In this document: in pieces, positions 3,861-58,268 of the stretch
Layout: every line of letters starts with the position of its first letter
How positions within the stretch are numbered: position 1 is the stretch's first letter
From: Bacteroidaceae bacterium
Lineage (GTDB): Bacteria; Bacteroidota; Bacteroidia; Bacteroidales; Bacteroidaceae
Reading direction: 5' to 3'
Assembly: GCA_017547385.1 (NCBI GenBank)
Contig: JAFYPU010000022.1
Location: 1-64,000 of the forward strand
DNA length: 64,000 nucleotides
The notes under the pieces: generated by a model
What the model saw: only the letters and a program-made list of their open reading frames with translations
Database searches by the model: none
What the model was told of the DNA's origin: nothing
Position numbers and translations under genes: made by a program

Positions 3861-3928
3861 AAAAATCTGCAAGGCGTTCTGAAAATTCTGCAGTGCTTGT
3901 AGAATTTTCAGAACGCCTTGCAGATTTC
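3861..3928. repeat. Three-module 21-bp intergenic element, copy 1 (A-B-A')
   Basis: The element has three consecutive 21-bp modules at 3866-3886, 3887-3907 and 3908-3928. Modules 1 and 3 are inverted copies (type A, containing CAAGGCG), giving a perfect 27-bp stem (3863-3889 with 3901-3927) around the 11-base loop GCAGTGCTTGT, which is the core of module type B. Four relatives occur elsewhere in this window, all intergenic. Confidence 0.85.
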
Positions 3929-11669: not shown

Positions 11670-11761
11670 CGTCTATCCGCGCGAAGCACCAAATTTGCCC
11701 GACCATTTGCGCACCTCATGTTTTTCTGACACTTTGCTCGAAACAGACGCATTTGTTGTGC

Positions 11762-11829
11762 AAAAATTTACACGGCGTTTAGAAAATTCTACAAGCACTG
11801 CAGAATTTTCTAAACGCCGTGCAGATTTT
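11762..11829. repeat. Three-module 21-bp intergenic element, copy 2 (A-B'-A')
   Basis: Modules lie at 11767-11787, 11788-11808 and 11809-11829. The outer two are inverted type A copies (CACGGCG variant) forming a 20-bp perfect inner stem. The central loop ACAAGCACTGC is the reverse complement of the loop of copy 1, so the middle module is inverted relative to copy 1. Confidence 0.85.
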
Positions 11830-19442: not shown

Positions 19443-19590
19443 GGCTTCTAAGAAACATCGAAACGGCTTTCAAGAGACATCGAAACGGCTTCTCACCGAA
19501 TTATCATCCGCATGAAACAAACCTTTCATCTGCATGAAACGAAATTATCATCCGCATGAGAAGACATTATCATCCGCATGATAATTAAAC
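19443..19590. repeat. 22-bp-periodic tandem array between adaptor and TolC genes
   Basis: The array begins on the base after the adaptor stop. First come units starting GGCTT at 19443, 19465 and 19487, two of them containing ACATCGAAAC. Then four copies of the dyad core TCATCCGCATGA (second copy TCATCTGCATGA) start at 19504, 19526, 19548 and 19570, exactly 22 bases apart. Both sub-arrays share one 22-bp phase. The core has inverted arms TCAT/ATGA. No ORF is supported in it. It could be an operator array, an mRNA processing spacer or a variable-number repeat. Confidence 0.8.
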
Positions 19591-25165: not shown

Positions 25166-25283
25166 CGACATTCGGCAGACTTTCAGAAGTGCACCGGATG
25201 TTTTTTGATCTGTAGTGAGATTATGATGGGTTAGGAACGTAAAAATGCTGACACTTTGTCGAAAAAAAGAGGTTGCAGAAGGC

Positions 25284-25352
25284 AAAAATTTACAGTGCTT
25301 GCAAAAAAAATCTGCAGTGCTTGTAGAAAATTTTACAAGCACTGCAGATTTA
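25284..25352. repeat. Three-module 21-bp intergenic element, copy 3 (B-B-B')
   Basis: Modules lie at 25289-25310 (22 bases), 25311-25331 and 25332-25352. All three are of type B (core CAGTGCTTG), the third inverted. The arms pair less perfectly than in copies 1 and 2. The central loop GCAGTGCTTGT is identical to copy 1. Confidence 0.8.
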
Positions 25353-34917: not shown

Positions 34918-34985
34918 AAATCTGCAAGGCGTCTAGAAATTTCTGCAGTGCTTGCAAAATTTTCTGCAAGGCGTTTAGATTTTTG
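34918..34985. repeat. Three-module 21-bp intergenic element, copy 4 (A-B-A, direct)
   Basis: Modules lie at 34921-34941, 34942-34962 and 34963-34983, all starting TCTGCA. Unlike the other copies, the third module is in direct orientation, so there is no long hairpin; the element reads as a tandem repeat A-B-A. This shows that the modules, not the hairpin, define the family. Confidence 0.8.
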
Positions 34986-58202: not shown

Positions 58203-58268
58203 AAATCTGCAGTGCTTGTAGAAATTTCTGCAAGCACTGCAGATTTTTCTACAAGGCGTGCAGAAAAA
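58203..58268. repeat. Three-module 21-bp intergenic element, copy 5 (B-B'-A)
   Basis: Modules lie at 58206-58226, 58227-58247 and 58248-58268, all exactly 21 bases and all starting TCT. The first two are inverted type B copies that form a hairpin; the third is an A-like module (CAAGGCG). It lies about 100 bases after the sigma factor gene. Confidence 0.8.

Follow-up and report, generated by a model that had tools for sequence, protein, structure and literature searches.

A family of three-module intergenic elements with a 21-bp step in a Bacteroidaceae genome, and arrays of like spacing in related species

The 64,000 nucleotides of Bacteroidaceae bacterium DNA analysed here (GenBank assembly GCA_017547385.1, contig JAFYPU010000022.1, positions 1 to 64,000; hereafter the window) carry five copies of an intergenic element that is built of three adjoining, near-palindromic modules with a step of 21 bp, two turns of the DNA helix. 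Elements of this kind are present in many copies in the genome to which the window belongs (G000, 2.35 Mb), lie upstream of promoter-like motifs, occupy the same gaps in a sister species of the same genus (G162), where modules have inverted in place, and have counterparts of like spacing and different letters in further species. We tentatively read them as helically phased sites for a predicted multimeric DNA-binding protein, set in a repeat that is copied within the genome; this is the explanation that we favour, at somewhat less than an even chance.

Each module consists of 17 bp and is separated from the next by a 4-bp spacer that is mostly A/T. Two types, A (TCTGCA-AGGCG-TTTAGA) and B (TCTGCA-GTGCT-TGYAGA), occur in either orientation; their arms are near-palindromic, and orientation is given by the 5-bp core (AGGCG or GTGCT). 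A scan for triples with allowed steps of 20-22 bp, which covered 861 kb (461 kb of the window's own genome, made up of contig C9, part of contig C4 and the window, plus 400 kb of G162), yielded 72 triples, 71 of them spaced 21+21 and one spaced 22+21, and after the removal of three weak ones (mismatch sum at least 12) 69 were retained. When modules with up to 3 mismatches each were paired with neighbours at most 120 bp away, the distances were 21 bp (120 times), 26 bp (once), 42 bp (three times) and 105 bp (three times), so that a step of exactly 21 bp holds for 120 of the 121 pairs less than 30 bp apart. All three 105-bp distances lie in G162 and are elements interrupted by an 84-bp repeat which, as read, still hold three A/B modules each besides the A-like end of the insert; because 84 is 4 x 21, the register of the element is preserved across it. 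When each module was allowed up to 3 mismatches, clusters had three members 54 times, two members 13 times and a single member 24 times, and many of the smaller clusters are triples with a decayed module, while some are chance.

A first-pass annotation of the window had proposed, from the five copies there, a fixed number of three modules of two types in either orientation, always with B in the middle and always between genes. Among the 69 triples a fourth module was found at only 1 of 138 outer positions (within 5 mismatches), both types recur in either orientation, and all 69 elements are intergenic by our own open reading frame (ORF) scoring; the rule for the middle position has two exceptions (B in 67/69). 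Of the 138 outer ends, 112 point inward, and the outer modules are complementary in 42 of the 69 triples. Four triples are interrupted by or adjoin the 84-bp repeat, which makes one module call in each of them unsafe.

The family is abundant in its own genome and is not a product of chance: the exact 12-mer of A is found 113 times and that of B 238 times (strands summed), against 0 for a reversed-pattern control. A three-module shell with free cores, allowed up to 3 mismatches, matched 161 times per strand, the sites listed matching on both strands, and its reversed-pattern control gave 0. Matches to SusD-like and LpxD proteins assign the host to Bacteroidota; Treponema, an early candidate, was rejected on that ground. 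Shell matches were confined to G000 and G162 among 58 genomes of the genus. A strict version of the shell was run against 84,980 species genomes, a set that may lack records very close to the window's genome, and hit 19 stretches, every one of them in the roe-deer colon metagenome-assembled genome (MAG) RGIG4240, a member of the same genus labelled Bacteroidaceae, which we take to be G162. The shell had no match in 60 further genomes across the phylum, the strict shell had none in viral contigs, and the exact B module had none in 150 other genomes of the family, a sample from which G162 was absent.

The elements are also non-randomly placed with respect to genes, as called by our own ORF scorers and not taken from annotation. 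The 69 elements fall into 39 tandem, 27 divergent and 3 convergent gaps, compared with 223 tandem, 74 divergent and 70 convergent among all gaps of at least 80 bp, so that convergent gaps are avoided (3/69 against 16% expected by gap length, p 0.005). The motif TAnnTTTG, which we take to be the Bacteroides -7 box, lies between the element and the downstream gene in tandem gaps 29 times in sense and 2 times in antisense orientation (26 of 39 segments), and on the gene side in divergent gaps 40 times in sense and 2 times in antisense (36 of 54 segments); between the upstream gene and the element it was found 4 times in sense and 2 times in antisense (3 of 39 segments). From the sense-oriented motifs on the gene side we therefore place the elements upstream of promoters.

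Synteny with G162 extends over most of C9, with an identity of about 82%. In the syntenic DNA, 19 of 28 own elements and 19 of 20 G162 elements have a counterpart in the same gap, where 5.5 would be expected (p 8e-13). Orthologous elements are 78% identical without gaps. Their flanks average 60% in gapped alignment, where shuffled flanks give 49%; gaps are required in 35 of the 38 flanks, whereas the elements hold their 59-bp length except for three insertions, a constancy to be read with some detection bias in mind. Module type is conserved at 49 of 57 orthologous positions (permuted mean 38.2, p 0.0009), and type together with orientation at 35 of 57 (permuted mean 25.6, p 0.005). Fourteen of the 49 type-conserved modules are inverted, 6 of the 19 pairs are identical in module order, and at C9:106746 the middle core alone is flipped relative to G162, with unchanged spacers. 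For these counts the module orders of the three G162 elements bearing the 84-bp insert were re-read by eye, the pair at C9:171371, whose alignment was split, was assigned by hand, and C9:25860 was omitted (G162 side weak, mismatch sum 12), as was C9:61294 for the same reason. A reading in which module content is largely replaced at orthologous sites was dropped; its low counts (34/57 for type and orientation, 47/57 for type) were partly due to the 84-bp insert.

Nine of the 28 own elements are without a clear counterpart in G162. No clean empty site was seen in the seven of these nine gaps that were aligned (all but C9:64619 and C9:25860), which are too diverged to rule one out. The first-pass annotation suggested that the element is mobile or recombining; rearrangement in place is supported by the 14 inversions among 49 type-conserved modules, and for movement of whole elements neither a target-duplication signal nor a clean empty site was found.

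Arrays of like spacing are present in other species, with module letters that differ species by species. The ortholog of gap C9:113551 in G154 holds a three-module, 21-bp array with a different core, GTCGGCGAC, and the orthologs fetched from other species of the genus are different-looking or shorter; the one in G169 (L148) carries tandem CTAGAAACACTAG repeats with an 18-bp period. A pattern search with the GTCGGCGAC core matched G154 7 times and G176 14 times, with some overlaps, and gave single 3-mismatch matches, possibly chance, in G184, G185 and G189, with a control match in G161. We used a letter-blind test that accepts any three noncoding 17-mers at equal steps with mutual identities of at least 11/17, direct or inverted. 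In 1.96 Mb of DNA from the genus it returned 71 arrays at 21 bp and 37 at 22 bp, and no other step between 14 and 30 bp gave more than 9. When G000 and G162 were left out and gene calls replaced the ORF mask, 40 arrays remained at 21 bp and 29 at 22 bp, with at most 10 elsewhere. Merged, the arrays of the other species number 63 and are spread over 16 of 19 species; the hits were not curated singly, one in G020 being A/T-rich low complexity, and the samples of G153 and G023 held no usable letters. In other genera of the family (351 kb; at most 20 kb sampled from each, 19 of 20 usable), the test found 8 arrays at 22 bp in 6 genera, 1 at 21 bp and at most 2 at any other step, and a small Escherichia coli control (150 kb, of which 19.6 kb noncoding) gave 1 at 21 bp, none at 22 bp and 1 each at 18 and 25 bp.

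Modules of these arrays tend to be palindromic. Relative to a column-permuted null, palindromy averaged 0.67 against 0.51 in the own genome and G162 (n=49) and 0.60 against 0.50 in the other species (n=48). Module number was three in 43 of 49 arrays of the own genome and G162; among 57 arrays of other species and genera, 27 scored three modules and the remainder had four to six. The TAnnTTTG bias is weaker on the gene side of other-species arrays, with 38 sense and 15 antisense motifs.

The explanation that we favour takes the element to be a platform of three near-palindromic sites which, being exactly two helical turns apart, would present themselves on one face of the DNA. Palindromic, one-face sites upstream of promoters, whose letters are shared within a genome and differ between species, suggest a trans-acting multimeric DNA-binding protein. 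The element would most likely serve as an operator or a nucleoid-type site for a protein that is multimeric or binds cooperatively, and a combinatorial binding site, as had been proposed, is possible. The letters that copies share would follow from their being read by one trans-acting factor together with copying within the genome; the protein, its cooperativity, any effect on transcription and the way in which copies are made are parts of this explanation that we infer. Cores invert in place, probably via hairpins or template switching, and a dimer that reads the palindromic arms would tolerate such inversion. Core flips resemble the small hairpin-loop inversions of chloroplast genomes, in which, in the portions of the report drawn on here, short segments between inverted repeats flip in place (PMC12928735); unlike these, the flips here lie within a repeat family and have occurred several times between two species.

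A precedent for the geometry is provided by ArgR operators, in which, according to the sections of PMC6640053 used here, a hexamer binds two 18-bp ARG boxes, spaced 3 bp apart, on a single DNA face. Like the modules, the boxes are semi-palindromic with a 21-bp step, which indicates that such a step can serve phased binding, and the elements combine this ArgR-like geometry of palindromic arms and 21-bp steps with TAnnTTTG motifs toward the gene. ArgR, as described in those sections, uses two boxes with conserved letters at few genes, in contrast to three modules, many loci, two core types and species-varying letters here (PMC6640053).

Beyond the A/B family itself, we consider it possible, if rather doubtful, that the arrays make up a Bacteroidaceae-wide intergenic class, each array having three to six palindromic sites at a distance of two helical turns and letters that are replaced species by species. 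Geometry would be kept and letters replaced if a fast-evolving DNA-binding factor co-evolved with its genome-wide sites; the class would then parallel, in bacteria, systems whose sites co-evolve with their factor, for example centromere repeats or PRDM9 motifs.

A number of observations weigh against a protein platform and against its extension across the family. No candidate binding protein was found, in a search limited to the Y1_Tnp domain, and some genomes hold two or more array families, which would call for several factors, or for none. The excess of complementary outer modules (35% expected, p 1e-5) hints at hairpins, and two near-invariant cores exceed the needs of a dimer that reads the arms. 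TAnnTTTG is common in upstream gaps generally, at 1.86 per kb compared with 2.6-2.7 per kb on the side of elements that faces the gene, so that the motif informs on the position of the element and not on its effect; its distance from the element is broad (52 of 69 motif matches lie 60-220 bp away, the rest 21-866 bp), unlike that of a classical activator site. In the letter-blind test three of the 19 other species (G082, G099 and G182) gave no array, a stricter ORF mask left arrays in 13 of 19, and other steps also yielded arrays, for example 10 at 16 bp when the element-bearing species were left out. Of the 48 arrays from other species, just 35% lie above the 95th percentile of the palindrome null. 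In these species convergent gaps are not avoided (15/63 arrays, against 23% of gap length) and divergent gaps are not favoured (9/63, against 22%), and the gap-class rule may therefore be peculiar to the pair G000 and G162.

Nearly as likely as a protein platform is that the elements are a non-autonomous mobile repeat, similar to miniature inverted-repeat transposable elements (MITEs) or repetitive extragenic palindromes (REPs), whose phased modules would be subsites for a trans-acting transposase or recombinase and whose location upstream of promoters would merely reflect tolerance of insertions there. This would fit the many dispersed intergenic copies, the families that vary by species as selfish repeats do, and the nine elements without a clear counterpart in G162. 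It would also fit a further conserved end, the D motif (GCTKACACTTTGNNNGAAAAA type): of the 68 elements with 21+21 spacing, 27 carry it 42 bp ahead of module 1 with 3 mismatches or fewer. The D motif matches 44 times in G000 and 28 times in G162 (control 0). It stands on one side of the element only; the two outer modules are mostly inverted relative to each other (42 of 69). Against mobility, boundary scans found no signal of target duplication in either the 27 D-type elements (best z 3.8 among 7000 tests) or the 41 others (best z 3.4 among 1792 tests); no clean empty site was met in the seven aligned gaps, diverged as they are; and convergent gaps are avoided, although insertion there should be harmless. 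Mobility alone would moreover leave the 21-22 bp steps in families of unrelated letters unexplained.

The RAYT-like Y1 transposase that had been suggested as a partner finds no support as driver of the class, and we rejected it in that role. Y1_Tnp (PF01797) has matches in 28 of 58 genomes of the genus, with one gene each in G000 (C21:52498-52833) and G162 (C10:84498-84836), and none in five array-bearing species (G187, G015, G192, G142 and G155, several of them incomplete MAGs); the A/B family itself may yet be linked to a Y1 transposase. Nor did we find the unpaired GTAG/CGTC end tag, D-type elements (n=27) having consensus ends ...CAAAAATYTRCA and TGCAGATTTT... and the others being judged by eye. 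In the sections of PMC3733652 considered here, the GTAG-/CGTC-tagged families of REPs and bacterial interspersed mosaic elements (BIMEs) lie mainly in unidirectional and convergent gaps, near 3' ends. They share with the present elements many short palindromic intergenic copies in species-bound families, REPs occurring as singles, dimers and groups; the present elements differ in avoiding convergent gaps and lying upstream of promoter-like motifs, in a fixed 21-bp triple, of which those sections describe none (PMC3733652), and in having no consistent Y1 transposase. BrickBuilt repeats of Porphyromonas gingivalis, as described in the parts of PMC4596501 used here, are direct 23-nt repeats of 1 to 22.8 copies at 19 loci, with a leader and a tail that can reach about 300 nt. 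They too are short repeated units in intergenic DNA of Bacteroidota, and membership was ruled out by the 21-bp unit, three copies and either orientation seen here, at some 160 or more loci (PMC4596501). Judged by titles and abstract openings, none of the papers listed in searches of an open-access library describes such arrays in Bacteroidaceae.

It is improbable, to our mind, that the elements are purely structural, that is, cruciform-forming hairpins or A/T-tract bends which would buffer supercoiling upstream of promoters with no specific protein. The 42 elements with complementary outer modules have a mean fold of -36.6 kcal/mol, an A/T spacer recurs every 21 bp, and variants are matched between the arms of A...A' elements (0/5000 permutations as good), matching in B arms being weak (p 0.08); templated repair could, however, yield such matching. 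Furthermore, 18 of the 69 elements are without a complementary module pair and fold at just -19.0 kcal/mol, several other-species arrays, such as those in G043 and G015, have G/C-bearing spacers, and a purely structural role does not require letters shared genome-wide. That the elements are intrinsic terminators or transcribed RNA hairpins is very improbable, in agreement with the first-pass annotation, since, although many copies have a long hairpin with a T run behind it, just 3 of 69 lie in convergent gaps, promoter-like motifs stand between element and gene and not before the element, Rfam at gathering thresholds matched nothing in the whole window except the tRNA gene at 67-140, and at 3866 a separate terminator-like hairpin, seen by eye, already ends the upstream gene.

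All five elements originally reported in the window were found in place when the sequence was read, with the module orders given to them (Table 1), and the single longer step, at 25289, was likewise recovered and holds a run of eight A. The element at 3866 forms a perfect 29-bp hairpin with a 5-nt loop once 2 bases are added per side, and its RNA fold is -47.4 kcal/mol.

Table 1. Three-module elements and associated D motifs in the window.
Feature	Position	Strand	Remarks
Element A-B-A'	3866..3924	.	three-module scan, reading
D motif	11725..11745	+	2 mismatches; 42 bp before module 1
Element A-B'-A'	11767..11825	.	three-module scan, reading
D motif	25247..25267	+	1 mismatch; 42 bp before module 1
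Element B-B-B'	25289..25348	.	steps 22 and 21 bp; three-module scan, reading
Element A-B-A	34921..34979	.	no complementary module pair; three-module scan, reading
Element B-B'-A	58206..58264	.	three-module scan, reading

Other repeats accompany the family. A second array family of the own genome (TTATCATGCGCATGATAA type, 22-bp step, four modules) has one array in the window. The second phased array of the window, at 19500-19586, consists of palindromic modules of TTATCATCCGCATGATAA type, four in number, with a step of about 22 bp; it is accompanied by weaker repeats from 19429 and has relatives on C4, on C9 and in G162. A third type with 22-bp steps (TATCAAGTGCTTGACACTGCAG type) is found at C4 139730 in the own genome and at C9 145654 in G162, and further intergenic strings, CTCGCCTTGCACTAACTTTGC and AAGATAGGCTGCGGCTCGG, were seen by eye to recur in gaps of the own C9 (for example 122117-122388 and 146043-146435). 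The 84-bp repeat with an A-like end lies inside three G162 elements (C9 171795-171940, 178042-178210 and 218855-219020; loci L097 and L099), in the first of which about 9-13 bp of element sequence flank it on both sides, like a target duplication; two tandem copies adjoin an own element at C4 35600-35860.

If the arrays are protein sites, they would constitute a genome-wide, promoter-upstream system in gut Bacteroidaceae, one that is easily overlooked since its letters vary by species and that a letter-blind test of spacing reveals. If they are mobile repeats instead, unrelated families would have converged on one helical geometry, which would point to a shared recombination machinery.
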